This document shows positions 1,613 to 26,398 of a DNA stretch of 26,521 nucleotides, one piece after another. Below the pieces are notes generated by a model. It saw only the letters and a program-made list of their open reading frames with translations, was not told where the DNA came from and did not search any database. Each line of letters opens with the position of its first letter. The first letter of the stretch is position 1. The position numbers and the translations under genes were made by a program. Location of the stretch: positions 1 through 26,521 of IMG/VR virus record IMGVR_UViG_3300022542_000546; one strand, 5' to 3'. This DNA comes from a virus.

Positions 1613-2440
1613 ATGAAGGACACCACCACAGACGACACAAAAGACTTGGAAAAATATGAGGCAAGGCGACCTGCAATAGCACCACAATCCGAAACGGCGT
1701 TAACGCAACAAGAATCATTTTTGTCAGCCATTGAAAGGCTCTCTTCAAACCCAAGCGTTGATGTTGAAAAAATAAAGCAGATGGTCGAAATACAAGAACA
1801 CCTGTTAGACAGAACGGCAGAACAGGCTTTTAATGCCGCCATGATGCGAGCGCAAAATAAAATAGAACTTGTTGTGGCAAAAGAATATAACGAACAGACA
1901 CATAGCAATTATGCCGACCTGAAGGCAGTTCTAATACAATCAAAACCCATTTATACCACAGAAGGATTTTCTTTAATGTTTTATGAAGGAGAAACAGAAA
2001 AAGAAGGCCACAAACGGGTTTGCGTGGATATTATGCACGAACAAGGATGCACAAAAAAACGTTATGGTGACTTTGCAATTCAGACAACAGGAATTGCCGG
2101 AAAAGCCATGATGACCCAAATACACGGTGAAGGTTCTGCCTTTTCGTATGGCAGGCGATATTTAACCTGTATGATATTCAACATCCCAACCGGTGATGAC
2201 GATGATGGAAATACAGCGGGAAAACCACCAGATCCTATTTCAGCCGCCAGAATAAAAGAAATCAACAACCTGATAAAATCAACCGGAGCCGATAAAACCA
2301 AATTTATGATATGGATGAAAAATATGCACGGTACGGCCAAGGTTGAAGAGCTTACAAAAGATAGTGCAAATCAGGTTTTGGCAACCCTGAAAGAAAAGCA
2401 AAAGGAAAAAGGTTCAAACAATGGAAATACAAGCAATTAA
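1613..2440 (+). CDS. erf: ERF-family single-strand DNA annealing protein
   Basis: The 275-aa length fits the ERF superfamily. Family features are the helical N-terminal part ending near the NYADLKAVL motif (residues 99-107), a central beta-rich region, and the diagnostic block GEGSAFSYGRRYL at about 172-184, followed by an acidic DDDDGN at 195-200. The block matches the family pattern of a Ser-x-x-Ser/Thr-Tyr-x-Arg-Arg-Tyr loop. ERF proteins form rings or filaments on single-stranded DNA and anneal complementary strands in phage recombination, usually with a 5'-3' exonuclease. That partner is encoded at 2612-3220. AAGGAG lies about 9 nt before the ATG. The 3' end overlaps the next small gene by 20 nt. 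Confidence 0.92.
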   Translation: MKDTTTDDTKDLEKYEARRPAIAPQSETALTQQESFLSAIERLSSNPSVDVEKIKQMVEIQEHLLDRTAEQAFNAAMMRAQNKIELVVAKEYNEQTHSNYADLKAVLIQSKPIYTTEGFSLMFYEGETEKEGHKRVCVDIMHEQGCTKKRYGDFAIQTTGIAGKAMMTQIHGEGSAFSYGRRYLTCMIFNIPTGDDDDGNTAGKPPDPISAARIKEINNLIKSTGADKTKFMIWMKNMHGTAKVEELTKDSANQVLATLKEKQKEKGSNNGNTSN

Positions 2441-2621
2441 AAATATAGAGAATGCCGTCATTGAAGCCCGCAGATTTATAATAAAGGCAACCGTTTGGAA
2501 GAGAAGGCTTTGTCATGACAAAGTGGCATATTTGTCAGGAAGTAAAGAGGGTGGAGCCGCGAAAAGGGCAAGTATGGACTTAACCCGAAGTTTAGTAAAG
2601 TTGAGGAGTCCATGGAAATAA
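2421..2621 (+). CDS. Small basic protein between erf and the exonuclease (66 aa)
   Basis: I do not recognise this protein. It is strongly basic (RRFIIKATVWKRRL, AAKRASMDLTRSLVKLR), short and mostly helical in appearance. It overlaps the end of erf by 20 nt and the start of the exonuclease by 10 nt, in a third reading frame. This bridging overlap is the main argument that it is translated, because without it there would be an unused gap of about 170 nt. The ribosome binding site is weak (AAAAGG about 12 nt upstream). A helper of the recombination pair is possible but unsupported. Confidence 0.55.
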   Translation: MEIQAIKNIENAVIEARRFIIKATVWKRRLCHDKVAYLSGSKEGGAAKRASMDLTRSLVKLRSPWK

Positions 2622-3220
2622 TACGGGGGATAGACCAAAATACGGATGAGTGGATGTCGTTACGCTTGGCAAGTGTGGGTTCAACAGCAATTAATAAAAT
2701 AGCTCCACAGGCCGATGCGTATAAAAATCTTGTTTACACTTTTGCTGGAGAGTACCTTTCCAAAACCAAAGCAGAATCAACAAGCTTTCGCTATGCAAGC
2801 AGGGGGCATGAATTTGAGCCAATAGCCAGAGAAGAATATAAAATAATCAAAGATGTTGATGTTGAGTTAATTACAATGGTTAAGGGCGACAAACCACACC
2901 AGCACACATCAACTGATGGCATCATAGGAACTGACGGTATCTTGGAAGTTAAAACCAGGACACCCGCAGAATGGCTTAAATTAGCTGAAGGAAAGATGCA
3001 CCCAATAGCAGATAGACGACAATATTGGTGGGATCTGTATATTTGCCACGACAGAAAATGGGTAGATTACTGTAATTATTGCCCTGAATTACACCAAGCA
3101 GGCAGAGATTACATCCTTATAGACAGAATCACAAGAGATTACAAAATGATAAGCGAGCTAAAGCACGTCGCTGATAAGTTTATAAACGAAATGCTTGCGC
3201 TCGCAAACAAATATCGGTAA
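2612..3220 (+). CDS. YqaJ/lambda-Exo-like recombination exonuclease
   Basis: The 202-aa protein has the PD-(D/E)xK layout of the YqaJ/lambda exonuclease family. An N-terminal block RLASVGSTAINKI (18-30) resembles the family RxGxxTAS motif. RGHEFEP (64-70) carries the first acidic residue. Asp102 and Asp108 precede Glu112-Val-Lys114, the ExK catalytic pair, and Gln137 in RRQYWW fits the downstream Gln motif. The enzyme would resect one strand of double-stranded DNA for the ERF annealing protein encoded just upstream. GAGGAG lies 4-5 nt before the ATG. The array of putative integron cassettes begins about 40 nt after its stop. Confidence 0.9.
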   Translation: MEIIRGIDQNTDEWMSLRLASVGSTAINKIAPQADAYKNLVYTFAGEYLSKTKAESTSFRYASRGHEFEPIAREEYKIIKDVDVELITMVKGDKPHQHTSTDGIIGTDGILEVKTRTPAEWLKLAEGKMHPIADRRQYWWDLYICHDRKWVDYCNYCPELHQAGRDYILIDRITRDYKMISELKHVADKFINEMLALANKYR

Positions 3221-3266
3221 TATAGTGATAGGTGGAAATGGTTTCTGCCTATTCCACTGTTATATT
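3219..3266 (+). repeat. Imperfect inverted repeat at the left border of the cassette array
   Basis: AATATA-GTG-ATAGG (3219-3232) pairs with CCTAT-tc-CAC-tgt-TATATT (3248-3266) around a 15-nt loop. The right arm runs across the proposed left boundary of cassette 1 (between 3259 and 3260). There is no AAC-ended R'' box here, so it is not a complete attC. It could be a decayed attC, the secondary hairpin target used for the first insertion, or chance. Confidence 0.35.
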
Positions 3267-3282
3267 TCTAAGGAGGTGTGCA

Positions 3283-3501
3283 ATGGGATGGTGTTCAGCA
3301 ACAGATATTTTTGATTCGGTCGTTGGAGCGTTACTTGAAGATGATAAGGTTGACAAGGAAACAACCATTAAAGAGCTTATTAATGCTTTAGAAGATGGTG
3401 ATTGGGATTGTCAGCAAGATAGCGTTTATTGGAATGAGCCTTTGGTTCAGAAGTGTTTTAAACTAACAAGCCCAGAGTTGTTTGACGAAGACGAAATATA
3501 A
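3283..3501 (+). CDS. Cassette 1 product: small acidic protein (72 aa), function unknown
   Basis: The start at 3283 is set by a strong AGGAGG at 3271-3276. An in-frame ATG at 3238 would put the start outside the cassette and has no ribosome site. The product begins MGWCSATDIFD and has 19 Asp/Glu against 5 Lys/Arg, a net charge near -14, with a Trp/Cys-rich middle (DWDCQQDSVYWNEP). Small proteins opening MGWCS-T-IFD occur in many bacteria and mobile elements as uncharacterised proteins; this is my recollection, not a search result. The stop TAA at 3499-3501 is embedded in the R'' box of attC1, a common arrangement in integron cassettes. The high acidity would suit a DNA-mimic or inhibitor, but that is speculation. 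Confidence 0.8.
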   Translation: MGWCSATDIFDSVVGALLEDDKVDKETTIKELINALEDGDWDCQQDSVYWNEPLVQKCFKLTSPELFDEDEI

Positions 3502-3559
3502 CCAGTCGTTGCGCATGAGCACAAAACGCCGTGCCATGTGAACTATATCGTTATATTTC
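3493..3559 (+). other. attC1, integron-type recombination site of cassette 1
   Basis: The R'' box ATATAAC (3496-3502) pairs with R' GTTATAT (3550-3556); including flanks, the arms are 10 nt and perfect. The spacer after R'' is CAGTC (5 nt) and the one before R' is TATATC (6 nt). L'' (3508-3522) pairs with L' (3531-3543) over 13 bp, including one G-T pair. There are two unpaired bases, G3511 and A3518, both on the L'' side. The terminal loop is 8 nt (3523-3530). The core length of 61 nt is at the short end of known attC sites. Integron integrases recognise the folded bottom strand through exactly these unpaired bases and spacers. The crossover would lie between G3550 and T3551. Confidence 0.85.
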
Positions 3560-3572
3560 TTGAGGTAAAAAG

Positions 3573-3776
3573 ATGATTATTAATTTAAACGTAAAAATTA
3601 AAGGTGGCCCACGAACTCCGGTTGAAGTTAATGTATATGGAACTTCTGTAAACATAAAAACATTAAAATTCGCAAACAAGGAAACCGTATCCGAGGACGC
3701 AATAGCTATATGGATAGAGCATTATTTATCCGAAATGTTAAATAACGTACAGTCTAAAAACCATGGCGAAATATAA
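3573..3776 (+). CDS. Cassette 2 product: small protein of unknown function (67 aa)
   Basis: I do not recognise this protein. The N-terminal half looks like a small beta sheet with alternating hydrophobic residues (IINLNVKIKGG, VEVNVYGTSVNIKTLKF). The C-terminal half looks like an amphipathic helix (AIAIWIEHYLSEMLNN). GAGG lies 9 nt before the ATG. The gene starts 22 nt inside the proposed left cassette boundary, and its TAA (3774-3776) lies within the R'' box of attC2, just as in cassette 1. It shares no obvious similarity with its neighbours, consistent with independent origin as a cassette. Confidence 0.75.
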   Translation: MIINLNVKIKGGPRTPVEVNVYGTSVNIKTLKFANKETVSEDAIAIWIEHYLSEMLNNVQSKNHGEI

Positions 3777-3877
3777 CCAGCCGCTTAACTCTGAGCGGGC
3801 AAAGCCGGGCTGCGTTCGGAAAGCTCGAAACAACTCAAAACCGTGAGCGCCGCCAGGTTAGCTCATCGTTATTTTAC
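3768..3877 (+). other. attC2, integron-type recombination site of cassette 2
   Basis: R'' is ATATAAC (3771-3777) and R' is GTTATTT (3868-3874). The spacers are CAGCC (3778-3782) and TCATC (3863-3867), both 5 nt. L'' at 3783-3800 pairs with L' at 3849-3862 over 14 Watson-Crick pairs, leaving single unpaired bases only on the L'' side: one T after the first three pairs, then T3790, A3794 and one G near 3799. The variable middle (about 3801-3848) can form further short stems. The core length is 104 nt, inside the known attC range. R' belongs to cassette 3, so R'' and R' match only partly, which is normal between different cassettes. Confidence 0.85.
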
Positions 3878-3878
3878 T

Positions 3879-4049
3879 ATGGATAAATACAAATATATCT
3901 GGTTTTGGAAAGTGAAATTACCAGAAAGAAAAGGAGATCCTTGCTGTATTTTAGCAAGGGGTAAAATGAACTCTATTCTAATTAAATTTACTGATGGCTA
4001 CAAAGTTATTACAAGCCGGTACGCTGTCCGTAAAATAACAAGTAAATGA
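3879..4049 (+). CDS. Cassette 3 product: small basic protein (56 aa), function unknown
   Basis: The start at 3879 lies only 10 nt inside the cassette boundary, and no Shine-Dalgarno is visible. Leader-poor cassette genes of this sort are common in integrons. An upstream in-frame ATG-less extension would run back through the attC2 stem and is rejected. The protein is basic, with KLPERKGD, a Cys pair (PCC), then LARGKMNSILIKF and DGYKVITSRYAVRKI. This pattern suggests a small beta-barrel-like fold. I recall similar LARG-MNS-L-EF-DG-VTSRYAVR proteins as uncharacterised small proteins on mobile DNA, but cannot verify this. The TGA (4047-4049) is inside attC3, where it overlaps the start of the L'' arm. 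Confidence 0.78.
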   Translation: MDKYKYIWFWKVKLPERKGDPCCILARGKMNSILIKFTDGYKVITSRYAVRKITSK

Positions 4050-4168
4050 ACCGTGACGTGAAGGGTCGGGCTGTTGGCAAGGTCTGATAATTGCCAGGGG
4101 ATGATATGTTGGGTGTGATATTTTAAGGGGTGTGCAAACCCTTCACGCAGGTTATTAAATCGTTGGGA
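4030..4168 (+). other. attC3, integron-type recombination site ending the array
   Basis: R'' is AAATAAC (4033-4039), within a 10-nt stretch that is the exact reverse complement of the start of cassette 3. Both spacers are 5 nt: AAGTA (4040-4044) and AAATC (4157-4161). L'' (4045-4065) pairs with L' (4139-4156) over 18 perfect base pairs, with three single unpaired bases, G4048, G4053 and A4056, all on the L'' side. As in attC1 and attC2, the first unpaired base follows exactly three pairs. The middle holds a further hairpin (TTGGCAA with TTGCCA, around 4074-4095). The length is 136 nt. R' GTTGGGA (4162-4168) belongs to the following DNA and does not match R''. Confidence 0.85.
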
Positions 4169-4179
4169 GGCTACTCAAC

Positions 4180-4344
4180 ATGAAAGATATTTTCAAAGAC
4201 AGAGAAGCAATAATGAAACAATGGGATCTGTGGCGAAAGTATATTGCCGAAGGCGGTGGGGGATCGTGGCCGAGGGATGCTTTTGAATCTTTGCTGGATT
4301 ATTATGATGAAAAGTTAAACTCCTCCCACTCTGAATCAAGCTAA
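4180..4344 (+). CDS. Small protein of unknown function after the cassette array (54 aa)
   Basis: The frame begins MKDIFKDREAIMKQW and ends NSSHSESS. It is helical in appearance, Trp-rich, with a GGGG turn in the middle. GGGAGG at 4165-4170 lies 9 nt upstream of the ATG and forms part of the right-hand GTTGGGA box of attC3. Two readings are possible. The gene may be the original neighbour of the exonuclease, displaced by insertion of the array into the GTT just before its ribosome site. Or it may be a fourth cassette whose attC has been lost, since nothing attC-like follows before the convergent gene. Its 3' end overlaps the - strand gene 4336-4728 by 9 nt. Confidence 0.65.
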   Translation: MKDIFKDREAIMKQWDLWRKYIAEGGGGSWPRDAFESLLDYYDEKLNSSHSESS

Positions 4345-4728
4345 ATTAATTTCCTTATTGTTCTTATCTTTCGCATAAACACGACCGCCAGCGTGTTTAA
4401 CGGCAAGATAATATATCTTTATTCGATGTAGGCGTAAGCTTTTTAGCCACTGCCACTTAGTACAAAACAAAACAATGCGTTGCATGTTAACATAAAACCG
4501 TTCATCCGCTACAGCCCTTTCTGTGCCAATGCTGTAATCAAAATCGTGAATTCTGCAAGCACGCTTTATGCTTAACCCCCACACTGTGTCGGGGATTAAC
4601 CTATCTCCCAACCAACCAGGCCCGCAACCCCCTGCTACAGAATCTATCTCTTCTTTTGTTGCATTCCAGAAAGATTCATCGGCATAGAGGGGGACGGGTC
4701 TGCCTTCGTATTTAATTCTTAACTTCAT
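4336..4728 (-). CDS. Phospholipase-A2-like small protein
   Basis: The 130-aa protein contains GGCGPGW (33-39), resembling the PLA2 calcium-binding loop, then ACRIHDFDY (57-65), which fits the PLA2 active-site helix pattern C-x-x-H-D-x-x-Y with His61-Asp62 as the catalytic pair. A further Asp75 is followed by Phe. Small PLA2-like proteins of this type are known in phage and parvovirus contexts, where the enzyme hydrolyses membrane phospholipids. There is no signal peptide. The gene is the last of the late/lysis transcript, right after two small membrane proteins, so a role in disrupting the host envelope at lysis is plausible. Activity is inferred from motif only; the second Cys of the classical CC-x-x-HD motif is replaced by Arg. 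Confidence 0.6.
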   Translation of the reverse strand: MKLRIKYEGRPVPLYADESFWNATKEEIDSVAGGCGPGWLGDRLIPDTVWGLSIKRACRIHDFDYSIGTERAVADERFYVNMQRIVLFCTKWQWLKSLRLHRIKIYYLAVKHAGGRVYAKDKNNKEINLA

Positions 4729-4734
4729 CTTTAT

Positions 4735-4929
4735 TTAGCGTTTCGAACCGGCTTTTTCAACCTTATGGGCTACACCCCATGTTGCAAAAGCGACGGAACA
4801 TACTGAAAGCCCTTGATAAATTTTTTCCGGATCAACGGTCTCTCCAACAAACCCAGCAACGGCCATCGCGATCCCACCACAAAACATACCAATGCAACCA
4901 ACTTTCGTTTTCCAACCTTTCATACTCAT
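4735..4929 (-). CDS. Small membrane protein, holin candidate (64 aa)
   Basis: The start is set at 4929 by AAGGAGG placed a few bases upstream. The longer open frame back to 4977 runs through the previous gene and is not used. The sequence starts MSMKGWKTKVG and has two hydrophobic segments, about residues 10-28 (Gly/Ala-rich, with two Cys) and 41-54, followed by HKVEKAGSKR. This layout, KGWKTK then two membrane helices then a HKxEK tail, is one I associate with small phage membrane proteins near lysis genes. A holin role fits context and topology but is not proven. The gene overlaps the preceding 51-aa gene by ATGA. Confidence 0.65.
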   Translation of the reverse strand: MSMKGWKTKVGCIGMFCGGIAMAVAGFVGETVDPEKIYQGLSVCSVAFATWGVAHKVEKAGSKR

Positions 4930-5081
4930 CTTATCCTCCTTTTTTTTATGAAAAGCCTTGGTATCATTGCCGCCCACGACAATAAACCTTTATACTTTTC
5001 GAACTTCTTGTTTTTGGCAAAGATTTCATCGATTATTTTCCCTGCCAGCATTACGGCTAAGGTTGTTGCCCACGGTTCCAT
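4926..5081 (-). CDS. Very small protein, possibly membrane-associated (51 aa)
   Basis: The frame starts at ATG 5081 with AGGAAGAG about 5 nt upstream and ends in TGA at 4926, overlapping the next gene by ATGA. The product begins MEPWATTLAVMLAGKIIDEIF, has a KNKKFEKYKG charged middle, then LLSWAAMIPRLF and a very basic KKRR tail. The first 20 residues form a short amphipathic or hydrophobic helix and the middle is Lys-rich. The ribosome site and the stop-start overlap on both sides argue that it is real. It sits among lysis genes. Function is unknown; an antiholin or accessory lysis peptide is a guess. Confidence 0.55.
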   Translation of the reverse strand: MEPWATTLAVMLAGKIIDEIFAKNKKFEKYKGLLSWAAMIPRLFIKKRRIR

Positions 5082-5091
5082 TTTTCTCTTC

Positions 5092-5526
5092 CTATTTGTT
5101 GGTAGCGTCTGAATACGCTTGTATCAACGCCCTAACGTTGGTAACGTATGCCGGTCTTTCGTCTGGCAAGATCCCGCTTGCGTCAATTTTTATACCAAAA
5201 AGGTTAATGCCTGATTTAATTAATAAAATTAAAGCTGCGTCGTCCGGCCTCGTTTTCATTGCGTATTCGTAGGCGGTTTGGAGTACATTTGCGTTAAGTA
5301 GCTGTTCGTCGCTCATTAGCAATACACCGTCAATCCAAGGTTTAGCCGTAACGACGAATTCCGGGTCTGTGGTTTTGAGAAATGTTCCCAGGTCGCTGCC
5401 GAATGTTTCATAGTTGCTTTTCTCAAGAGATGGATTCACCTGAATAAACTTGCATCCTGTCAATGCAAACAGGAACACCATAGCTAATACTGCAAAAAAC
5501 ATTGTGTTGCCTTTTTTCCTATACAT
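5092..5526 (-). CDS. Phage-encoded lipoprotein (144 aa)
   Basis: The N-terminus MYRKKGNTM is followed by a hydrophobic stretch and the lipobox ALTGC, with Cys25 as the likely lipidated residue. This indicates export and attachment to a membrane. The mature part of about 120 residues is helical-looking and acidic/mixed (SNYETFGSDLGTFLKTTD, LLNANVLQTAYEYAM). AAGGAGG lies 7 nt before the ATG. The gene follows the endolysin directly, so an outer-membrane spanin-type subunit is one option. However, no inner-membrane spanin partner is obvious and the protein is long and not Pro-rich. Superinfection exclusion by a surface lipoprotein is the other option. Confidence 0.75.
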   Translation of the reverse strand: MYRKKGNTMFFAVLAMVFLFALTGCKFIQVNPSLEKSNYETFGSDLGTFLKTTDPEFVVTAKPWIDGVLLMSDEQLLNANVLQTAYEYAMKTRPDDAALILLIKSGINLFGIKIDASGILPDERPAYVTNVRALIQAYSDATNK

Positions 5527-5530
5527 TTTT

Positions 5531-5965
5531 TTACCTCCTTGGTTTAATTACCTCTTCATAATGCCACAAATCTTGAAAATCCTGGTCGGTAATTGGTTCC
5601 CCGTTTTGATTCCAATTTCCACCCCAACGGATAGGAATGCCAAGTTTTTCACCACAAGCCTGCACAACCCCTGCCAAAAAAATACAATGATACCAATTAT
5701 CTGATGCTTTTCCATTTACATAAGGGGCAGCATCGACAGCGTGAGCAAGATCGTTCGGGTTTAATACGTTATGTTTACTGTTGGGCCACAGAACTCTTGA
5801 TCTGTCTATTTTAAACAATCTGTTTTGTCGTGCCTTAGCTCTTCTACTTTCAATAGCCGCAATATCTATTAATCCCATTGCAAGAGCTTCATCGAAAACT
5901 AATTGAAGATTAAAAGATGCCGTAATTAAAACTCCTGAAGATGTTCTTCCGTAAGAATATTTCAT
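5531..5965 (-). CDS. Endolysin, M15-type zinc peptidase (L-alanyl-D-glutamate/DD-peptidase family)
   Basis: The start is placed at 5965 (MKYSYGRTSS), because AAGGAT lies about 9 nt upstream and the ATG overlaps the preceding TGA as ATGA. A longer open frame to 6037 runs through the neighbour. The 144-aa length matches the T5-style peptidoglycan peptidases. Motifs are SKHN (63-66), HAVDAAPY (75-82), the Trp-Gly-Gly (114-116) with W118, then DFQDLWHYE (129-137). Zinc ligands would be His65, Asp78 and His135, with Glu/Asp catalysis nearby. The enzyme would cleave peptide cross-bridges of the cell wall at lysis. There is no signal peptide, so it needs a holin, and candidate membrane genes flank it. 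Confidence 0.88.
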   Translation of the reverse strand: MKYSYGRTSSGVLITASFNLQLVFDEALAMGLIDIAAIESRRAKARQNRLFKIDRSRVLWPNSKHNVLNPNDLAHAVDAAPYVNGKASDNWYHCIFLAGVVQACGEKLGIPIRWGGNWNQNGEPITDQDFQDLWHYEEVIKPRR

Positions 5966-8274: not shown

Positions 8275-9297
8275 TTAAACTCCTATATTCTTAGTTAAAT
8301 GATGCATTGCTACTGGTATTGATAATCCACCTGCTGCCATAAGCCCAGCTTCAAAATCATCAAAAAACGCATTACCAGATGCTGTTGTATCGAAAACAAA
8401 GCCCTCGGATGTCTCTGTGTTATGATCTGATATGGTTTGGTCGCTCCCCTGCTGGACATCGTTACTAAATATTTTTATTGTGTTATCATTGCATTCAATT
8501 TTCACAACCGCATCTACTACACCCTGAAATGTTACAATAGAATCAGTGAGTGAGCCAGCTACATTCTTACATAAGCGAGCGCCTGCTCCACCAGAACCAG
8601 CCACATGGAAACCGACAAAGTTATCTAAATCAACCAAGCGGGAGCATAAATAAATTAATGCTCTAGGCTCAACACGAAGAGTCTTTATCTTAATATAATG
8701 ATCCGCACTTCCCTGGTCAGTACATGTCCAAACTGAAGCCCCGGAACCTCCACCACCGGTGGTAGGCTCCAAGGCGTTAGTTTTAATAAGGGCTCTATAA
8801 CCGCCATCAGTAACTAATGTCCATCCTGCCCTATCTTCAAGCAAATCATCATCATCGCCAGTAAAGTCATCTGTAAAAGTGCCGCTTGTTTTCGGTATGC
8901 CATCAAAAGCTAATTCACAATGATTTGGGTTTAATTTTTTAAGGATAGCATTAATTAGATCCTCATTTGTATTAACTCCTGATAGATCTTGTAACAAGAA
9001 TTCGTTGTTAGAAGAGTTTACAATTTTGTTAATTGTTGATGGAGAAACTTTCTTTGTAAGATCAACTCTTATATCATCAATATCAATATACTCTATTGTG
9101 GTGGTGTGAATTATCTTATCAATTTCCTGAAAATCAGCATCTTCACCACTGACTAAAACTAAACAAGTATTTGTTTTTATAGAATGGTGAGTTGATATCC
9201 AAAATTCTGAGCATAAAGATACATAACCGTCCAGACTGTCCACAATAGGATGGATATCGTTAATATATTTAGTTAAATAAGCTTCAATTTTCGCCAT
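8275..9297 (-). CDS. Fibre-like/adhesin protein with a C-terminal lectin-like beta domain (about 340 aa)
   Basis: The start is uncertain: ATG 9297 (MAKIEAYL) is used here, and an in-frame TTG at 9315 is possible. Neither has a clear ribosome site. Residues 1-130 form a mixed alpha/beta region (EAYLTKYINDIHPIVDSLDG; TCLVLVSGEDADFQEIDK). From about residue 135 there is a beta-sandwich-like domain starting TSGTFTDDFTGDDDDLLEDRAGW, with GGGGSG, then SSRLVDLDNFVGFHVAG and FFDDFEAG. This is the pattern of phage concanavalin/LamG-like domains that begin with a DDFTG-type strand. It would bind a surface glycan or serve as a fibre segment. It is in series with the 403-aa fibre-like gene, with a 2-nt gap. 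Confidence 0.65.
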   Translation of the reverse strand: MAKIEAYLTKYINDIHPIVDSLDGYVSLCSEFWISTHHSIKTNTCLVLVSGEDADFQEIDKIIHTTTIEYIDIDDIRVDLTKKVSPSTINKIVNSSNNEFLLQDLSGVNTNEDLINAILKKLNPNHCELAFDGIPKTSGTFTDDFTGDDDDLLEDRAGWTLVTDGGYRALIKTNALEPTTGGGGSGASVWTCTDQGSADHYIKIKTLRVEPRALIYLCSRLVDLDNFVGFHVAGSGGAGARLCKNVAGSLTDSIVTFQGVVDAVVKIECNDNTIKIFSNDVQQGSDQTISDHNTETSEGFVFDTTASGNAFFDDFEAGLMAAGGLSIPVAMHHLTKNIGV

Positions 9298-9335
9298 ATT
9301 AGTTATACAAATCAACTTAAAATTCGTTTAAAAAA

Positions 9336-9749
9336 CTATGGTGTTTTCACAACGGCAATAATTTCAAGTATTGTTGTTGGTACTGGAGGTGTGCTATCTA
9401 AGGTTGCCGATACTTCATTACTCCTTGTTGCCTCATTATCACTAGTATCGTAAGGAACAACTATCCAATACCATGTTCCATCTTCTATATTGTTCATCGT
9501 TAAAGCTTCTCTGTCAAATTCTAAATCCGGTATTAGGTTGTGGTCGTATATTTCATTATTTGGTAGGACTATTGCCACAGGAATATCCACTCCAATAACT
9601 TGACTACCTGGCGTAGCAGAGCGGTATAATTTATATCCAGCAAGATCTGCTTCCATACTTTTGGCCCATTTGAAAGTTACTGAATTATCCCCAAAAGCTA
9701 CCCCTGCCAACATTACAAAACTTATCAGTGCTATTAAAAGTCTTTTCAT
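9336..9749 (-). CDS. Exported fibronectin-type-III-like protein (137 aa)
   Basis: The N-terminus MKRLLIALISFVMLAGVAFG is a clear Sec signal peptide, with likely cleavage after Gly20 before DNS. Residues 22-118 read as one fibronectin III-like domain: VTFKWAKSMEADLAGYKLYRS for the first strands, then a Tyr-containing middle and DGTWYWIVVPYDTSDNEATRSNEVSATL for the last strands. AAGGAG lies about 8 nt before the ATG. It is unusual for a phage late protein encoded between an ejection protein and fibre genes to be exported. It may decorate the infected cell envelope or be assembled onto the virion from the periplasm. The fold is inferred by eye. Confidence 0.72.
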   Translation of the reverse strand: MKRLLIALISFVMLAGVAFGDNSVTFKWAKSMEADLAGYKLYRSATPGSQVIGVDIPVAIVLPNNEIYDHNLIPDLEFDREALTMNNIEDGTWYWIVVPYDTSDNEATRSNEVSATLDSTPPVPTTILEIIAVVKTP

Positions 9750-17892: not shown

Positions 17893-18797
17893 CCCCAACC
17901 TCCCTCGTCAACATATCGGTTCTTTTGTCTTATCAACTTCCCAGGTGTTACACCTTTCGAGTCTGATTCAATAGCATCCAGGACGTCCGTTACGTACATT
18001 TTATAAATAGTTTCTACGTTTTTCGGCGAAAGGGAATGTGAAAGTTCGTAAGCTATCCGGCCAGCCAAAGCCCTCATAAATCCCACAGAAAGTTCAGTCA
18101 CAAGAGAAACCTGAGCTATATAAATAAGTATCGGATCTTCGTAACTGCTCATTATTCTTTGGGAGTTTCCAGATCCGATCATTTCAAACTGAGCGTCCTT
18201 ATCCTCAAGAGACACGACTTTTAGGAAATCAGCAGGAACGTTATAGACATACCCGCTCTGGTAATCCGTAAGGGGTTCTTTTCTTATAACTGTACCGCCT
18301 GAGGTATACGCCGTAAAATAGGTTGAATTCAAACCGTAGCACTCGAACGTGTTGTCTTCTTTGTTTGCAACCCGGACATAAAATCCGTTTATTTCGGTCA
18401 TACCGGAAACACCATTGATATATCCCTGCCAACCGTCTTCAAGCCCATGAGCCGTAGCAGAAACCACACACGGATTTGCGTTTGTAATGCCTGTAATGTC
18501 CACTGCATCAAAGTCAGCCTCATCATATCCCAGGGCTTTATATAGTTGTAAATGCCGTTTCGCGAATTGCCAGTTGTAATCTCCAATTTCAGGCACAGCA
18601 AAAAGGCCCTGTAGCATTTCGTCTCTTAATTGAGAGTAAACATCATTACAAGCTATTTCTTCAGGTGTAGTAGGACTACCAACATTCTCAACCTTTTCAG
18701 CGCCTAACCTGTGCATTGCAAGATTACAAAGGTCTTCGATATTTTGTAAGCCTACTGCTATTACATCAGCCGTGCCTGCTCCTATCCATTCAGCCAT
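17889..18797 (-). CDS. Tail tubular protein A-like (T7 gp11-like) with FCCH-type insertion (302 aa)
   Basis: The N-terminus has the family pattern CNLAMHRLGAEKVENV (24-39) and CNDVYSQLRDEML, as in T7 gp11-type head-tail adaptors. About residues 102-172 are a small inserted beta domain (NPCVVSATAHGLEDG, GVSGMTEINGFYVRV, TAYTSGGT), the pattern of an FCCH-like domain often found in phage tail proteins. After it the family resumes with YQSGYVYNVPADFLKVVSLE and a helical C-terminus (GRIAYELSHSLS). AAGGA lies upstream of the ATG. The protein would join the portal to the tail tube. It overlaps the following tubular B gene by 4 nt. Confidence 0.85.
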   Translation of the reverse strand: MAEWIGAGTADVIAVGLQNIEDLCNLAMHRLGAEKVENVGSPTTPEEIACNDVYSQLRDEMLQGLFAVPEIGDYNWQFAKRHLQLYKALGYDEADFDAVDITGITNANPCVVSATAHGLEDGWQGYINGVSGMTEINGFYVRVANKEDNTFECYGLNSTYFTAYTSGGTVIRKEPLTDYQSGYVYNVPADFLKVVSLEDKDAQFEMIGSGNSQRIMSSYEDPILIYIAQVSLVTELSVGFMRALAGRIAYELSHSLSPKNVETIYKMYVTDVLDAIESDSKGVTPGKLIRQKNRYVDEGGWG

Positions 18798-18807
18798 GAT
18801 TTATTCC

Positions 18808-20727
18808 TTATGTATTATCGCTTCTTGCCAACTCATACCAATTATTGTCTGCTTTACAAATTAGCGTTAAGGTGTCAGTTGCAGCCATCACAAAATTAAC
18901 GCTACCGTTTAAAAATATGTTTGTACCATCTGTTATGGTAATAGCATGTTCTGAGATTATCCGAATGATTTTTCCTGTTACACCATCATCAAAATCGGTT
19001 ATTGTTGTCGTGCCTCCAGTTAAAAACTTTTCCCCACCAGCAACAGTTGGAGTAGCCTCATTTGCAAGGGTTTTAAAACACGGCAAATAATTACCTGTTT
19101 TGTTGCCAGTTAATGCATTACCTGTCACAATTGTATTGATAATTGATGTATGTGCTTCAATGCCATATGTCTGATCGCCACCTGCGCCCAACGAATCAAA
19201 ACATCTATTACCTGTGACAACACAATCGCTTGCACTATGAGTAGCATCATAATATCCTAAAGTAATTCCTGCTGCTCCAACATATGTGCCATTATTGTAA
19301 CATATATTATTTGCTACTATAGTCTTCTTCCCAAAAATCGAAAGGCCAGAGGAGGCACAGCCATAAATAATATTACCTTGTATACTTGTCCTTGTTGCCC
19401 AACTTTCTATACCGCTGGGAGCTGTGCCATCATCATCTAAAGCTGGATTGCTTGAATAAATAATATTACCATGAAGTATATTGTTATACGAGCCCGCTTC
19501 GCCTTGAGTTGAAATGCCTGCCCCATAGCCCCAACCAGAAATATTATTATTATTTACAGTTAAGTTATATCCTTGAATTATTATTCCAGAATTAGTACAA
19601 ATATTATTACTAATATGAGCATCGCTGAGTACTCCCCCGGAATTTGTTAATAATATTGCTTGATTGAGAGAAAGAGACATAAAATCTTTTGTAATTATAT
19701 TATTTCTTATATTAAAATCAGTGCAAGCGTTTCCGCCTATACCTAGAGTAACAAACTTTTCTATTTCACATCTATAAATCTTGAAATTTGTGCCATATAA
19801 ATTCCCTAATGCACCTATAGTGCCAGTTGTACCGACATTGTCATAGTCAATCGTTATATCATGGATTTGATAGTTTGTCTTTGAAGTAAATTTAACCAGA
19901 TCAACAGTAAGCGCACCACGGGCTTTTATGGTTGTAACTCCGATACCATCACCAGCCCATTCAGTATTAGATACACCTGTTAAATTATCAACTAAATATA
20001 TTCCAGCTACAAATCTTAATCTATGTCCTTCTGCTGCTATTATTGCTAATTGTACTGCTGCTGTATCATCTGTGGTTCCGTCACCTATAGCCCCCCACCA
20101 TTGAGGATAAACTTTTTCAACAAAACCTTTACCAAAAGCAATGGAAATGCTCGAACCAAAAACTTGATATAATTCTGCTTTAAAAGGCCCGTTAATAGTA
20201 AGCGTTCCAGCCCCGTCAAGAATAGTCCCATTTTCAATTTCAAGAGAAATGTTACTTGGAATGGTTTCACTGGCTGTAAGAGTGTAGGCGGTTGTCGCAC
20301 CTCCACTATTATGCCGTAAATATATTGTGGCTTTATCAGAACCGATAGCATCAATAAAAGCTTTAATTGTTTTGCCATTACCAACAACACCCTGATCTGT
20401 TTCGTTGTGGTCTGCTGAATATCTCCCAATACTGTAGCCATCCCCCTCGTCACCAGCATGAGGATGCATAGAAACATTACCTGCGCTGCCAGGCTTTACG
20501 GAACTATACCAGACTTCGGCCAAATTTGACGTGAGATCGTCATTTGAGGATACAAGATTCACTGTGGTATTAGGACTTGAATAGCTTGAACTTTCAACGG
20601 TTCCATACTTGTAGCCATCCGCACCACAGTTGGCCTTCACCCGCCTGCCAGCGATAAAATCAGCCGTTTTATCAAGCGCAACTGTGAATGTGTCTGCGTC
20701 CACGTGAGTAGCTGTGAATCCTATCAT
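18808..20727 (-). CDS. Tailspike with right-handed beta-helix (pectate-lyase-3-like), 639 aa
   Basis: Residues 1-200 are a virion-attachment part with several small beta domains (DTFTVALDKTADFIAGRRV; NTTVNLVSSNDDL; GNGKTIKAFIDAIGS). VYPQWWGAIGDGTTDDTAAVQ (about 206-226) is the hallmark opening of a pectate-lyase-3-type beta-helix. Many short repeats rich in N, I, G follow (NIRNNIIT, ISNNICTNSG, VNNNNISGWG, LHGNIIYSS, IQGNIIYG, VTGNRC, VTGNALTGN), as in parallel beta-helix repeats. A compact C-terminal beta domain ends KADNNWYELARSDNT. It would form trimeric spikes that bind and perhaps cleave host polysaccharide; no catalytic residues can be assigned. AGGA lies 6-7 nt before the ATG. Confidence 0.85.
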   Translation of the reverse strand: MIGFTATHVDADTFTVALDKTADFIAGRRVKANCGADGYKYGTVESSSYSSPNTTVNLVSSNDDLTSNLAEVWYSSVKPGSAGNVSMHPHAGDEGDGYSIGRYSADHNETDQGVVGNGKTIKAFIDAIGSDKATIYLRHNSGGATTAYTLTASETIPSNISLEIENGTILDGAGTLTINGPFKAELYQVFGSSISIAFGKGFVEKVYPQWWGAIGDGTTDDTAAVQLAIIAAEGHRLRFVAGIYLVDNLTGVSNTEWAGDGIGVTTIKARGALTVDLVKFTSKTNYQIHDITIDYDNVGTTGTIGALGNLYGTNFKIYRCEIEKFVTLGIGGNACTDFNIRNNIITKDFMSLSLNQAILLTNSGGVLSDAHISNNICTNSGIIIQGYNLTVNNNNISGWGYGAGISTQGEAGSYNNILHGNIIYSSNPALDDDGTAPSGIESWATRTSIQGNIIYGCASSGLSIFGKKTIVANNICYNNGTYVGAAGITLGYYDATHSASDCVVTGNRCFDSLGAGGDQTYGIEAHTSIINTIVTGNALTGNKTGNYLPCFKTLANEATPTVAGGEKFLTGGTTTITDFDDGVTGKIIRIISEHAITITDGTNIFLNGSVNFVMAATDTLTLICKADNNWYELARSDNT

Positions 20728-20739
20728 ATATTTTCCTAT

Positions 20740-20776
20740 GTGCAGGGTGGGAAGCTACATCAGTTCCCACCCGCAC
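20740..20776 (-). promoter_or_regulatory. Strong hairpin just upstream of the tailspike ribosome site
   Basis: GTGC and GGGTGGGAA (20740-20753, one bulged A) pair with TTCCCACCC and GCAC (20764-20776) around a 10-nt loop, 13 bp in total. On the - strand it is followed only 1-3 nt later by AGGA of the tailspike gene and has no U-run, so it is not a standard terminator. It may act as an mRNA stabiliser, a processing site or a translational control element. Confidence 0.5.
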
Positions 20777-20795
20777 GTCTTAAGGAGGTCGTTTG

Positions 20796-20812
20796 TAACC
20801 CCCGGGGTTACC
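20796..20812. repeat. Short GC-rich palindrome after the HNH gene
   Basis: GTAACCCC and GGGGTTAC (with one extra C) form an 8-bp hairpin that ends at the HNH stop codon. No T-run follows on the - strand. It could help to end or insulate the HNH transcript. Confidence 0.35.
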
Positions 20813-21336
20813 TAATTAATATATGCGAACTTCCCAAAATATTCAATTGCAGCTTTATTATAAGCCATAGCTGCTTCCTTAATATCTTCAAACCGCCCAA
20901 GATGAATATTTTTATAATTTACCATTATTGTGCTGCTCCATTTTTTTGTTCGCTTATCCCAACAAACTCCCTTAAATCCAGATTTGTTTCGTTTCGTTTT
21001 CCCGACATTCCTACAATTTTCTAAATGTGTACAAATCCTAAAATTAGACTTGCAATTATTTAATGGATTTCTGTCTCTATGGTCTATAAGTTGGTTTGTG
21101 CCGGCCATAAAATTCATAATAATGTTTTGAATAGCAGCCATGTTGTTGCCATTACTTGATGTCCGAACGTACCCATCAGTTGCTAAACACCATTTGTAAT
21201 TATTTACTTTTTCAACATCTTCGGTATCAATTATCGCCCTTGCTTTTTCTTTGCAATGTTTGTCATATAGAACAATATTAGCGATATTCCCCATAGTTAT
21301 GATTTTGTTTGGGTCGTAACGTGTTCTTTTTTTCAT
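20812..21336 (-). CDS. Free-standing HNH homing endonuclease with AP2 DNA-binding domain
   Basis: The 174-aa protein has an N-terminal strand region (NIVLYDKHCKEKARAIID; NNYKWCLATDGYVRT) and an HNH core with IDHRDRNPLNNCKSNFRIC (84-102), containing His86, Asn90, Asn93/94, Asn98 and Arg100. An AP2-type domain follows at about 119-172 (SGFKGVCWDKRTKKW; GRFEDIKEAAMAYNKAA; YFGKFAYIN). This domain order is typical of mobile phage homing endonucleases that cut intron-less or intron-free target alleles and spread by repair. It sits alone between a small capsid-region gene and the tailspike, flanked on both sides by structured spacers. That fits insertion into the late operon. GGAGG is present 5 nt before the ATG. 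Confidence 0.88.
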   Translation of the reverse strand: MKKRTRYDPNKIITMGNIANIVLYDKHCKEKARAIIDTEDVEKVNNYKWCLATDGYVRTSSNGNNMAAIQNIIMNFMAGTNQLIDHRDRNPLNNCKSNFRICTHLENCRNVGKTKRNKSGFKGVCWDKRTKKWSSTIMVNYKNIHLGRFEDIKEAAMAYNKAAIEYFGKFAYIN

Positions 21337-21357
21337 ACTTACCTCCGTTTAGGTTTA

Positions 21358-21413
21358 CCGGATGAGGTTGTTGAAACGGCAACAACCCTTGACCCCATGC
21401 ATAGGGCATCCGG
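21358..21413 (-). promoter_or_regulatory. Three-way-junction-like structured leader before the HNH gene
   Basis: An outer stem CCGGATG/CATCCGG (21358-21364 with 21407-21413) encloses two inner hairpins: GGTTGTTG/CAACAACC around 21366-21387 and CCATGCATAGG-type pairing around 21395-21405. It lies between the stop of the 88-aa gene and the HNH start. No U-run follows on the - strand. It resembles a compact structured RNA that could separate the HNH gene from the capsid transcript. Confidence 0.45.
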
Positions 21414-21421
21414 TTTGTTGC

Positions 21422-21688
21422 CTATGAGTTATGAATTAATACCGATGCACCAGCGCCGGTTAACGTTAAATACAAACCAGTATCACACCGCACACCACGT
21501 GGAGGATTGACGTTACCGCCGCCATAGTTGTTTGCATCAACGACAGTAGTTTCATCAACAACCTCACCGCTTGCAGCCGTATTGTTATGAATCACAGCTT
21601 TTGCGTCAGCTCCATCTGCAATAACCTTGACATATAACAATGTTGTTGGCCCACCGGAGACTAACCCGGTTGCTGTATATTCCTTCAT
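21422..21688 (-). CDS. Small protein downstream of the capsid genes (88 aa), unknown
   Basis: I do not recognise this protein. It begins MKEYTATGLVSGGPTTLLYVKVIADG and is a compact beta-rich sequence, low in charge, with several Gly/Thr/Asn turns (ANNYGGGNVNPPRG) and a final strand LYLTLTGAGASVLIHNS. AGGAG lies about 6 nt before the ATG. It starts 2 nt after the stop of the 121-aa gene. The sequence resembles small phage decoration or fibre-tip-like beta domains; a capsid decoration or head-fibre role is inference from position only. Confidence 0.65.
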   Translation of the reverse strand: MKEYTATGLVSGGPTTLLYVKVIADGADAKAVIHNNTAASGEVVDETTVVDANNYGGGNVNPPRGVRCDTGLYLTLTGAGASVLIHNS

Positions 21689-21690
21689 GC

Positions 21691-22056
21691 TTATTTCTCC
21701 TTCTTAGGATTCGTCTGAGCATCCTTCGACTCAGCCGTTTCCCGCTTATTCAGCTCACCCCACACTTTCCTGCGCTTCCAGCTTGCAGGAACCGTCATAA
21801 AAGCTTTGAGCGCCGTCCTTAAATCGTCAGTGCTTCTTTTGTCATCTCCGGCAGTTATTGCCCTTCTGTCATCTTGCCCAGACTTGATGATCTTTTTTGC
21901 TTCAGTGGCAAGTTTGAAATGAGTGCATCCGTTAGCGTCTGGTATCCAACCCTCAGGCAGCTTCTCTCCTACGGTAAAATATTTATGCCGGTAAACTCCG
22001 TCTGAATAGTAACAAGCCCTTATCGCTACACATTCTCCTTCTTTTGCTACTGTCAT
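21691..22056 (-). CDS. Small protein downstream of the cement gene (121 aa), unknown
   Basis: I do not recognise this protein. The N-terminal half looks like a small beta domain (GECVAIRACYYSDGVYRHKYFTVGEKLPEGWIP...), and DANGCTHFKLATEAKK leads into a charged helical C-terminus (KRSTDDLRTALKAFM; SWKRRKVWGELNKRE; AESKDAQTNPKKEK). AAGGAGG lies 8 nt before the ATG. A GC-rich hairpin separates it from the cement gene upstream. A similar short protein with GEKLPEGW-type text is often found beside phage capsid genes, but its role is unknown to me. Confidence 0.65.
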   Translation of the reverse strand: MTVAKEGECVAIRACYYSDGVYRHKYFTVGEKLPEGWIPDANGCTHFKLATEAKKIIKSGQDDRRAITAGDDKRSTDDLRTALKAFMTVPASWKRRKVWGELNKRETAESKDAQTNPKKEK

Positions 22057-22077
22057 GTTATGCCTCCTTAAGTCTAA

Positions 22078-22095
22078 GGGGGCGTTTCAGCCCCC
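22078..22095 (-). promoter_or_regulatory. GC-rich hairpin between the cement gene and the next gene
   Basis: GGGGGC (22078-22083) pairs with GCCCCC (22090-22095) around the 6-nt loop GTTTCA. On the - strand it follows the cement gene stop and precedes AAGGAGG of the 121-aa gene by about 10 nt. There is no U-run, so it is more likely an mRNA-stabilising or partial-attenuation hairpin than a full terminator. It would help keep capsid and cement expression high relative to downstream genes. Confidence 0.5.
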
Positions 22096-22103
22096 GGCTA
22101 GCG

Positions 22104-22520
22104 TTAATCAATCAATTCCTGTTTCAGTCCTAACCAGCAATTAATATTGCCAGCACCGATCGTGCCCGATACAGTAATAAGACCGCCTAAGTGTTTTAGG
22201 CGTTCAGTGCCAGCAGGCAAGATCACGGAATGTTTTGTTCCCGCAACAGACCCAGCAGCAAGGTTAATTGTCGCTTTTGTTGTGGCACCAGATGATAATG
22301 TCGCATCGGCTGTTTTTGTTGCAAGGGTAATTACAGCCGTTCCAGTATTGGTCATCGCAGTCGTTACGGTTACGTTAAACGACATACCTCCAATTTGATT
22401 GTTCTTTGCAGTTCCCCAAACATCTTTGGAGGCTTTGGAATTTTCATGGACAACAGTGCTCACCGCAGTTGAGGTGATAACCTGCTTGTCGCTAAATTCT
22501 AAAGTTTTATCTAAACCCAT
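22104..22520 (-). CDS. Capsid cement/decoration protein, Bbp16-like (138 aa)
   Basis: It begins MGLDKTLEFSDKQVITSTAVSTVVHE, matching the pattern LDxxLxxSDxQxxTxTAxST seen at the start of Bbp16-family cement proteins of BPP-1-like phages. The rest is a beta-rich fold with many Thr/Ala/Val (MSFNVTVTTAMTNTGTAVITLAT; LSSGATTKATINLA; GTKHSVILPAGTERLKHLGGLITVSGTI; NCWLGLKQELID). The position directly after the major capsid gene (41-nt gap) is the family's usual place. The protein would bind the outside of the capsid shell and stabilise it against DNA pressure. AAGGAG lies upstream of the ATG. Confidence 0.8.
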   Translation of the reverse strand: MGLDKTLEFSDKQVITSTAVSTVVHENSKASKDVWGTAKNNQIGGMSFNVTVTTAMTNTGTAVITLATKTADATLSSGATTKATINLAAGSVAGTKHSVILPAGTERLKHLGGLITVSGTIGAGNINCWLGLKQELID

Positions 22521-22561
22521 TATACTATCTCCTTATATGTTAAAAGTTGAGGTTTCTCTGA

Positions 22562-23530
22562 TTATGTCAGAGCCGTTTCGGTGATTGTCAGAGCGTCAAC
22601 CTGGCGAATCGGTACACCCTTGAAATGCAGTACCGGACCTGGGGCTAAACCGTCTTCTTTATAGAAATTCACGTTCGTCTTGTCCTTGAACAGGATTTCC
22701 ATTTGAGTCATAACGGTTTCGTTAACGTAGATTCTCCGACCAGGCCCTTTGGTCATCCTGTTCATAAGGGTGATCAGGTTATCCTCATCAAAGATGTTGG
22801 TCGTTCCGGCTGATTCAATGTTAGCCAACCTGCCAATACTCTTATGGTTTTTTACAACCATACCGGCTTTCCACTTGAAAATATCACAGTAGGCCAGGAA
22901 CTCCTTACTGTTGGAGTCCTTTGTAAGAACCTTACCCATATCGACATGTTCCAAGCCTACCTTGGAATTCCGGGGATACATCATGTAAACGCTGTTAATC
23001 CCCCAATCCACAACGAATATAGAACACAGATCGCTACCTGTCCCACCCTCATTAATTACATTTGCCGCGGCGGCTATATCGTCCAGCCTGGGAGCCAGTC
23101 CGGTGAACTTTTCAGGATCGGCGGAAGCGTCGCCATAAATCATAGCCGTTGCCATGTCTTGTGACAGTCCTTCAACAAAGGACATAGCCTCGTCCATCCG
23201 GGCCTGCTGAGGGTCTTTAAAAGATTTGATCAGATCCACATCATTATTGGAGTGTGCTTCGAGGATGCCAATCACATCAACCAGTTCAACAGTCTCGCTC
23301 GATGCGTTGTCAACACCCTCGTTGAACTTTCTCCACGTACCGCTCGGAAGGTTTGAACGCCGGGTCGTTTTGTTAGAATAATTGTCATTTGCCTCTCTCC
23401 AGACAGCATCCGCGACTATGTCGTTTTGCTTATTTAAAACCTCTGCAATTGTCGAAAGGTTTCCGTCCGGATCGTGACGTTTGACGACCTCAACCAAACT
23501 CATTCTTACTTCATTAACGTCCATTGCCAT
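22562..23530 (-). CDS. Major capsid protein (322 aa)
   Basis: Length, position between scaffold and cement genes, and sequence style identify the HK97-fold capsid protein of this podovirus group. The N-terminal region MDVNEVRMSLVEVVKRHDPDG is helical. The E-loop/P-domain-like text is TTRRSNLPSGTWRKFNEGVD and MDEAMSFVEGLSQDMATAMIYG. The C-terminal part is RRIYVNETVMTQMEILF followed by LHFKGVPIRQVDALTITETALT, as expected for the A-domain end. It assembles the icosahedral shell with the scaffold encoded upstream. AGGAG is located 10 nt before the ATG. Met at codon 3 is an alternative start. Confidence 0.88.
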   Translation of the reverse strand: MAMDVNEVRMSLVEVVKRHDPDGNLSTIAEVLNKQNDIVADAVWREANDNYSNKTTRRSNLPSGTWRKFNEGVDNASSETVELVDVIGILEAHSNNDVDLIKSFKDPQQARMDEAMSFVEGLSQDMATAMIYGDASADPEKFTGLAPRLDDIAAAANVINEGGTGSDLCSIFVVDWGINSVYMMYPRNSKVGLEHVDMGKVLTKDSNSKEFLAYCDIFKWKAGMVVKNHKSIGRLANIESAGTTNIFDEDNLITLMNRMTKGPGRRIYVNETVMTQMEILFKDKTNVNFYKEDGLAPGPVLHFKGVPIRQVDALTITETALT

Positions 23531-23551
23531 TTTTTGTATCTCCTATGGCCT

Positions 23552-24232
23552 TCAGTCCATATCCTTAAACACCAAGCGTGGTGAACCATCAGGCCCTCTT
23601 GGTCTCGTTTTACCTCCGGTGTCGCCTATTTTAAGCACGTCCTCAGAGATTTTTTCTTTAATGGAAAGCATGGCTTTTACGAATTCAGGGTCGGACTTTA
23701 AATCTAACCTGTCGGTTAAGTCTCCCAGCCCTAAAGCCTTGCTTACCGCCTCTATCTTCTTTTCGATTTCGGATTCCTCAAAGCCTGTATCCTGTTTAAT
23801 CTGCTTCCACGCCTCTACTCGTTTCGCCTCGTAAGACTCCATGACATTGCCAATGCGCTGAATATCATACTCATTAAGCGCCTTGAACTGCCCTTGCGTA
23901 AGTCCCTCTTTTAAAGCAAAATCTTTGAAGAGCTTGTGGTCAGCTTCGTTAAACGGTACATTCTCCGGGAACTCGAAACTATATTCATCAGGCTTACCCG
24001 GGATAACCGGCACTTGGCCTTGAATATCTATGTAAGACGTTGCTAGTTTCCCAACGTCCATATCTTTGAACATTTCGTTTTCTCTCAAGTCTTCAGGCAG
24101 TTGGCTTGCAAAGTCTGTAGGCTCCGACATCTTTTCTACAAATTTTGATGCAAGTGCGCCTGTGTCCTCAATGCCTGTTAAATGCTCGCTTTCCCTTAAA
24201 TCCTCTGGTATTGCGTCTGTAAATTTACTCAT
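23552..24232 (-). CDS. Capsid scaffold protein (226 aa)
   Basis: The start is ATG 24232 (MSKFTDAIPEDLRE), with AAGGAGG 6 nt upstream; an in-frame TTG at 24238 would be too close to that site. The acidic, helical protein carries two related segments of the form DAIPEDLRE-SEHL and QLPEDLRENEMFKDM, then KPDEYSFEFPENVPFNEADHKLFKDFALKEGLTQGQFKAL. The last block is the pattern of phage scaffold proteins. A helical region (KLKSDPEFVKAMLSIKEKISED) and a short basic C-terminus follow. It would template the procapsid and leave before DNA packaging. It overlaps the 108-aa gene by 8 nt. Confidence 0.82.
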   Translation of the reverse strand: MSKFTDAIPEDLRESEHLTGIEDTGALASKFVEKMSEPTDFASQLPEDLRENEMFKDMDVGKLATSYIDIQGQVPVIPGKPDEYSFEFPENVPFNEADHKLFKDFALKEGLTQGQFKALNEYDIQRIGNVMESYEAKRVEAWKQIKQDTGFEESEIEKKIEAVSKALGLGDLTDRLDLKSDPEFVKAMLSIKEKISEDVLKIGDTGGKTRPRGPDGSPRLVFKDMD

Positions 24233-24551
24233 CGTCAACCTCCTTAAGTTGAGTTTCTAACTGTTTAAATTGCGCCTGCCTGTCGGCTTGTACCTCTCTG
24301 TGTCTTATATCAATTAACTTCTTCGCTACTTCCGGGGCAGCCTTTGAAACATCCGCCCAAACCTGACTTGATACGTAATACCGCCCACAGTCAAAATCAC
24401 CTTTGATTATTCCTCCGAAATTGCCAAGATTAAGAATATATTCAAAAACCTTCATTCCGTTCGGAGTGCTAAACACTACCTGTAAAGCTCGGTGAAACTC
24501 AGCCTCGTCAGATAGTTGCTGTCGCTGTTTTTCTATGCCTTCTCTGTTCAT
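24225..24551 (-). CDS. Small protein between portal and scaffold (108 aa)
   Basis: The protein is helical with a core VFSTPNGMKVFEYILNLGNFGGI and GRYYVSSQVWADVSKAAPE. This resembles a small family with the pattern F-T-G-R-L...G...N-GRR--G found between portal and scaffold genes in many podoviruses. Its function is unknown. The C-terminus is charged (HREVQADRQAQFKQLETQLKEVDDE). The ATG overlaps the portal stop by ATGA, and the end overlaps the scaffold start by 8 nt, so all three are translationally coupled. Confidence 0.7.
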   Translation of the reverse strand: MNREGIEKQRQQLSDEAEFHRALQVVFSTPNGMKVFEYILNLGNFGGIIKGDFDCGRYYVSSQVWADVSKAAPEVAKKLIDIRHREVQADRQAQFKQLETQLKEVDDE

Positions 24552-26242: not shown

Positions 26243-26252
26243 ACTGTTCCTT

Positions 26253-26301
26253 AAAATAAAAACGGGCTGTAAATGAAGGTAATGGCTCCATTACAGCCCG
26301 T
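26253..26301 (-). terminator. Rho-independent terminator 2 upstream of portal
   Basis: ACGGGCTGTAA (26262-26272) pairs perfectly with TTACAGCCCGT (26291-26301), 11 bp, with an 18-nt loop. On the - strand it is followed by TTTTTATTTT (complement of 26253-26261). The U-run ends just before AAGGA of the portal gene. Confidence 0.85.
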
Positions 26302-26312
26302 CTTTGCGCAAT

Positions 26313-26346
26313 AAAAAAAGGGATTAAGCGAGTGCACTCAATCCCT
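26313..26346 (-). terminator. Rho-independent terminator 1, in tandem
   Basis: AGGGATT (26319-26325) pairs with AATCCCT (26340-26346) around a loop that itself contains the palindrome GAGTGCACTC. On the - strand the stem is followed by a seven-T run. It lies 7 nt before the next hairpin. Together the two form a tandem terminator for the gene block to the right. Confidence 0.85.
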
Positions 26347-26363
26347 ATTGTTTACTGCTGGTT

Positions 26364-26383
26364 TTCCTCCTGGCCGGGAGGAA
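26364..26383. repeat. Short hairpin between the partial gene and the terminators
   Basis: TTCCTCC (26364-26370) pairs with GGAGGAA (26377-26383), 7 bp with a 6-nt loop, 16 nt past the stop of the partial right-edge gene on the - strand. It has no U-run. It may add to the tandem terminators as a 3' mRNA stabiliser. Confidence 0.4.
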
Positions 26384-26398
26384 GCTAATTTTTAATAT

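Follow-up and report, generated by a model that had tools for sequence, protein, structure and literature searches.

How do units with the architecture of integron gene cassettes come to lie in the early operon of a phage, and by what route could they have entered it? The window analysed here is the entire IMG/VR virus record IMGVR_UViG_3300022542_000546, a linear fragment of 26,521 b. Its minus strand codes for a portal/head-tail adaptor protein (phrog_332; it has relatives in named phages, phiV10-like podoviruses among them, with a top identity of 37%), a major head protein (phrog_212) and tail proteins. The plus strand codes for an HNH-like protein, an ERF ssDNA-annealing protein and a YqaJ-type exonuclease, the genes of the latter two also matching phrog_155 and phrog_149. 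A separate HNH-type endonuclease ORF lies amid the structural genes (20812-21336; its relative on L024 shows 49% identity). The array sits where two operons converge and is oriented as the recombination operon, with the ERF and YqaJ genes upstream and lysis and virion genes downstream (Table 1).

Table 1. Coordinates of the cassette array, its recombination sites and the adjoining phage genes in the window.
Feature	Position	Strand	Description
Flanking recombination operon	1613-3220	+	Same orientation as cassettes
ERF ssDNA-annealing protein	1613-2440	+	Pfam ERF, E 1.5e-16
YqaJ-type exonuclease	2612-3220	+	Pfam YqaJ, E 9.7e-11
attI-like leader	3220-3259	+	Left edge of array, ~40 bp before first crossover
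Cassette 1	3260-3550	+	ORF 3283-3501, 72 aa; RBS AAGGAGG
attC1	3496-3556	+	61 nt; 13-bp L stem (one G.T), two extrahelical bases on L''
Cassette 2	3551-3868	+	ORF 3573-3776, 67 aa, no family
attC2	3771-3874	+	104 nt; 13-bp L stem, three extrahelical bases on L''
Cassette 3	3869-4162	+	ORF 3879-4049; ATG 10 nt past boundary
attC3	4033-4168	+	136 nt; 19-bp L stem, three extrahelical bases on L''
Terminal unit	4163-4344	+	ORF 4180-4344, 54 aa; no attC after

Cuts between G and TT at 3259/3260, 3550/3551, 3868/3869 and 4162/4163 mark off three units, with a fourth beginning at the last cut, so that the bounds given in the initial annotation (3260-4162, with its three units) proved exact. Each unit carries one ORF, starting 10-23 nt past the cut, and ends in an attC-type site, with the stop codon inside R'' in units 1 and 2. 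The boxes of attC1 are R'' ATATAAC and R' GTTATAT, whereas the R' of attC3 as it stands in the array, GTTGGGA, is the start of unit 4. As had been described at the outset, the spacers measure 5 and 5-6 nt, the unpaired bases (2, 3 and 3) are confined to the L'' arm, and the first of them follows three pairs in 3/3 sites; stem lengths had been put at 13, 14 and 18 bp, of which the first held and the other two were recounted as 13 and 19. A C precedes GTT in all three sites. In box sequence, length, extrahelical bases and the G after AAC, attC1-3 agree with the published description of attCs, in which R'' ends in AAC and R' begins with GTT, conservation lies mainly in AAC/GTT, the length is ~57-142 nt, two or three extrahelical bases stand on the R''-L'' arm, the central spacers are unpaired and the bottom strand usually has a G following AAC (PMC2727003). 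The R' extension GTTATAT is off GTTRRRY by one base, as are the sites of the Tetrasphaera phage TJE1.

Palindromes of this kind might instead be ordinary hairpins (terminators, processing or regulatory elements) rather than recombination sites, and for two of the three many shuffled sequences fold just as well on the bottom strand (z -1.5 for attC1, -0.3 for attC2 and -2.5 for attC3). The prediction that the bottom strand would fold better than shuffled controls thus failed for attC2, and fold energy alone is weak evidence because this site does no better than shuffles by energy. Geometry was more informative: under a strict definition (Watson-Crick pairs only, >=13 bp), two sites were counted in the window (attC2 and attC3) and 0 in 120 dinucleotide shuffles, attC1 being missed because of its single G.T pair. 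This count and a covariance model replaced a first home-made site scanner, which was too noisy, returning 10 chance matches as good as attC1 in 120 shuffles. The model was built from 33 attCs adjoining integron-integrase genes in bacterial genomes, hence from bacterial attCs only, and the window was searched with filters off. It recovered attC2 (29.3 bits, E 6e-6) and attC1 (28.6 bits, E 1e-5), both on the plus strand and at the boundaries first proposed, and the third-best match anywhere in the window reached 14 bits. The expectation that an attC covariance model would recognise the sites was borne out for these two but not for attC3, which in its in-array form gave no match up to E 10 because its R' comes from unit 4 and does not match. 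As a positive control, TJE1 gave three strong matches (22.6, 29.6 and 23.1 bits; the rest <=12.1) grouped within 244-1519, in keeping with the three-attC array published for this phage, and the scores of attC1 and attC2 fall within the range of these sites (22.6-29.6 bits).

The pairing of the boxes bears on the origin of the units. R''/R' boxes were present, as initially claimed, but each R'' pairs with the start of its own unit (10, 10 and 10 nt for units 1-3) and not with the downstream R' (10, 5 and 3 nt); units 2 and 3 are the informative ones and both favour the own start. In cassette 1 the 10-nt pairing is between the start, GTTATATTTC, and the R'' of the same unit; in cassette 3 it is between the start, GTTATTTTAC, and the R'' GTAAAATAAC, which pairs with the next unit over 3 nt only. 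Such pairing indicates that the units were once circular, since simple hairpins have no reason for it, and it is explicable only by a circularised unit. Together with the matches to a bacterial attC model, a strict geometry absent from shuffles, the C before GTT in 3/3 sites and the finding that no terminator-like match overlaps the three sites, it makes the reading as ordinary hairpins very improbable. An Rfam search of the window gave no match. We therefore regard the units at 3260-4162 as integron cassettes with near certainty, and the view that cassettes of this kind lie in a phage, with phage genes on both flanks, was sustained.

The cassette genes are small. The ORF of cassette 1 matches phrog_11183 (function not known; E 2.5e-11), and its protein, which begins MGWCSATDIFD, has viral relatives (L043-L046) that all lie outside detectable attC arrays, distant matches only in Streptomyces phages, and no match in the bacterial genomes or plasmids searched. 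Since relatives occur in Streptomyces phages and on unrelated viral contigs, phrog_11183 also exists outside detectable cassettes. The protein of cassette 2 had no match in the phage search, and PADLOC returned nothing convincing for the four window ORFs. No further attC-model match was found downstream of the terminal unit, whose ORF, beginning TTGGGAGG, is probably the phage gene that originally adjoined the leader site described below.

No match to the integron integrase model TIGR02249 was found in the window record, itself a fragment of the phage, and the record therefore holds no intI gene of the kind that defines a complete integron. An array with >=2 attCs and no integron integrase is a CALIN. 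The suggestion in the initial annotation that this is not a usual phage feature does not stand, as 17 phage-borne CALINs have already been described, including three from virulent phages that had been isolated experimentally (Qi et al. 2023, PMC9892861); the array is a correct finding but not an unprecedented one. In the same study 5/6 tested phage attCs recombined with IntI1, including two of those in the TJE1 CALIN, which comprises 3 attCs and 4 ORFs (PMC9892861). The CALINs of Tetrasphaera phage TJE1, Pseudoalteromonas phage H101/PH101 and Polaribacter phage P12002L are likewise integrase-less attC arrays amid phage genes, and TJE1 shares with the window the layout of 4 ORFs and 3 attCs, R' boxes of the GTTAT type and the range of model scores. 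The window differs from all three in phage lineage (phiV10-like portal) and in cassette genes. Sedentary chromosomal integrons resemble the window in attC architecture, in the circular-cassette signature, in small unknown ORFs and in stop codons at or near R''; unlike them, the window array has no intI and sits in a phage early operon.

Both the window and the partner contig introduced below are metagenomic assemblies, which raises the question of an assembly chimera joining a phage to a bacterial integron fragment. The window is a single metagenomic contig, and a second contig of the same phage, L002 (metagenome 3300022540; 99.94% over 18764-26521), stops short of the array and consequently provides no independent copy of this region. 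Searches for relatives spanning the array gave no close relatives with YqaJ, distant relatives only with ERF and with the 1071-aa protein, and, with the portal, L002 (right end only) and the fragments L003 and L004, which lack the early region. The endolysin scan yielded L214; its early side differs and carries no attC. L214, from the same metagenome as L002, has an endolysin (82%) and the adjoining small gene in common with the window, and its early side, without cassettes, shows by eye a long primase/helicase-like ORF. Against a chimera stand the phage genes on either side, the direction of the cassettes, which is that of the operon, and an independent contig on which phage genes likewise enclose this leader and this attC type, so that we assign a chimera a very small probability.

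That contig was found through the attC type. Scanning viral contigs for the R'' motif GAAATATAACCAGNCG gave 55 candidates, and in one of them (L266) the model confirmed attCs of this type. L266 lies on a 94,313-b contig (G015, IMGVR_UViG_3300031578_009495) of a tailed phage coding for a portal, major head protein, polymerase processivity factor, SbcCD, DnaC loader and RusA. Its attC type is that of the window (GAAATATAACCAGCCGCT...CGTTATAT), six attC-model matches fall at three places (8399-9470, 65849-65951 and 81512-81821), and no integron integrase was found in its record. One of its cassettes codes for an N6_N4 DNA methyltransferase, and the R'' of this cassette is complementary over 10 nt to the cassette's start. 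The methyltransferase cassette lies directly downstream of a large ORF that looks terminase-like by eye, for which there was no HMM match.

The two phages have in common the left edge of the array, where the initial annotation had placed the start correctly at 3260 and had overlooked the leader before it. The leader has inverted arms ATAGGTGGAAA (3228-3238) and TTTCTGCCTAT (3242-3252), with a hairpin z of -4.4 on the top strand, and an L-like box TGCCTAT (3246-3252) followed by a 6-nt spacer and the G/TT cut. A fourth full attC was considered and ruled out, as there is no R'' box and GTT is preceded by T, as opposed to C in the array attCs. Right before the first cassette, both phages carry ATAGGTGGA-(loop)-TTTCTGCCTAT-NN-CACTG/TTATATT. 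Left of the crossover, the similarity score between the window and L266 was 33, a value reached by 1/800,000 shuffles, and no other of the 3,808 TGTTA sites in the DNA compared scored >23; L266 had been picked by its attC and not by its leader, so the leader match is independent. The leader block begins only a few bases from the stop codon of the gene before it and ends exactly at the crossover in both phages, and in both it follows a recombination-nuclease gene (YqaJ in the window, SbcC in L266/G015), yet the first cassettes behind it differ.

Because attI sites are poorly conserved, recognising an attI layout by eye is weak evidence, and of 23 bacterial integron loci examined, the majority showed no leader-like pattern near intI. 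A similar CTA[AT]-(5-7 nt)-GTT layout does occur in the attI of class 1 and in a few others, and TGCCTAT-6 nt-GTT resembles attI1 (GCCCTAA-AACAAA-GTT). The layout also resembles the Shewanella attI quoted in PMC9892861. On the strength of the L box, 6-nt spacer and G/TT cut, and of these two resemblances, we call the segment at 3220-3259 attI-like, a designation of position and layout that is predicted from sequence. Its core gave two 2-mismatch matches in 399 Pseudomonadota genomes, judged to be chance, with no host integron carrying the site, and nothing above chance level in the phage and plasmid collections; the leader is known from two phages only, the window and L266/G015. As far as the literature could be searched, no description of a common leader with differing cassettes was found.

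The published proposal for cassette entry into phages is off-target homologous or illegitimate recombination (PMC9892861), and the main rival to a docking site follows from it: a host attI with its leading cassettes would have been captured once as a block by such recombination and would persist as a passive relic, with no site-specific exchange in the phage. An attI captured in this way would likewise appear conserved in two phages of one host group, and in M16-3, a cryptic prophage of Shewanella, a CALIN is indeed headed by a host-type attI (PMC9892861). M16-3 and the window are alike in being headed by an attI-type site in phage DNA, but the M16-3 site is of host type, in an inactive prophage that also holds a complete integron, whereas the window and partner records are without integrase and the leader is kept across two unrelated phages. 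A single block capture also sits poorly with different cassettes behind the same leader, with a leader that in both phages runs from near the stop codon of a phage recombination gene exactly to the crossover, and with the lack of attached host DNA such as intI in either record. We consider it unlikely, albeit far less so than a chimera.

That two unrelated phages have this leader and the attC type in common but differ in the cassettes behind the leader points instead to site-specific loading at a fixed place, in contrast to the capture proposed for the TJE1, H101 and P12002L CALINs. The reading we favour, with a probability of roughly 0.68, is that the window holds a CALIN of genuine cassettes behind an attI-like leader that was loaded by a host integrase in trans. 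On this reading, at the end of the ERF-YqaJ operon, with ORF 4180-4344 as the leader's original neighbour, a host integron integrase acting in trans would have inserted cassette circles at the leader, the folded single bottom strand of the attC recombining with the double-stranded leader by a cut between G and TT. Later cassettes would have been added at the same place, giving a small integrase-less array of three attC-type cassettes and a terminal gene, and the cassette genes, as an accessory locus open to exchange, would then be expressed from the early promoter of the phage. The cassettes, their circular signature and the common leader are observed, and we infer the integrase, the docking and the benefit to the phage; for the leader as a docking site used in trans, the odds seem to us about even. 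Counting against the favoured reading are the energy of attC2, the model's miss of attC3, the poor diagnostic value of an attI layout, the failure to find the leader core above chance level in the genomes and collections searched, and the occurrence of the leader in two phages only.

A broader and more tentative claim, to which we give slightly less than even odds, is that phages keep an attI-like docking site of their own where a recombination operon ends and use the host integrase in trans to take up and swap cassettes there, forming an integrase-less phage integron across unrelated phages. Site-specific loading would open the pool of bacterial cassettes to phages as an accessory locus with exchangeable content, perhaps with anti-restriction genes among it, given the DNA-methyltransferase cassette of the partner phage.

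At least 270 IMG/VR contigs code for integron-integrase relatives, and among the best 80 of these (L134-L213) about 45 also have attC-model matches, almost always on the other strand from intI; some of these contigs may be bacterial DNA at prophage edges. One intI-bearing contig, L212, with a site of the GTTATAA type, was inspected and proved to have a different leader. On KX853513 (Virus Rctr41k), a gene annotated as xerD (4680-5678) aligns to integron integrases across the extra domain (MPNALDRKYPN), and methyltransferase genes lie near it.
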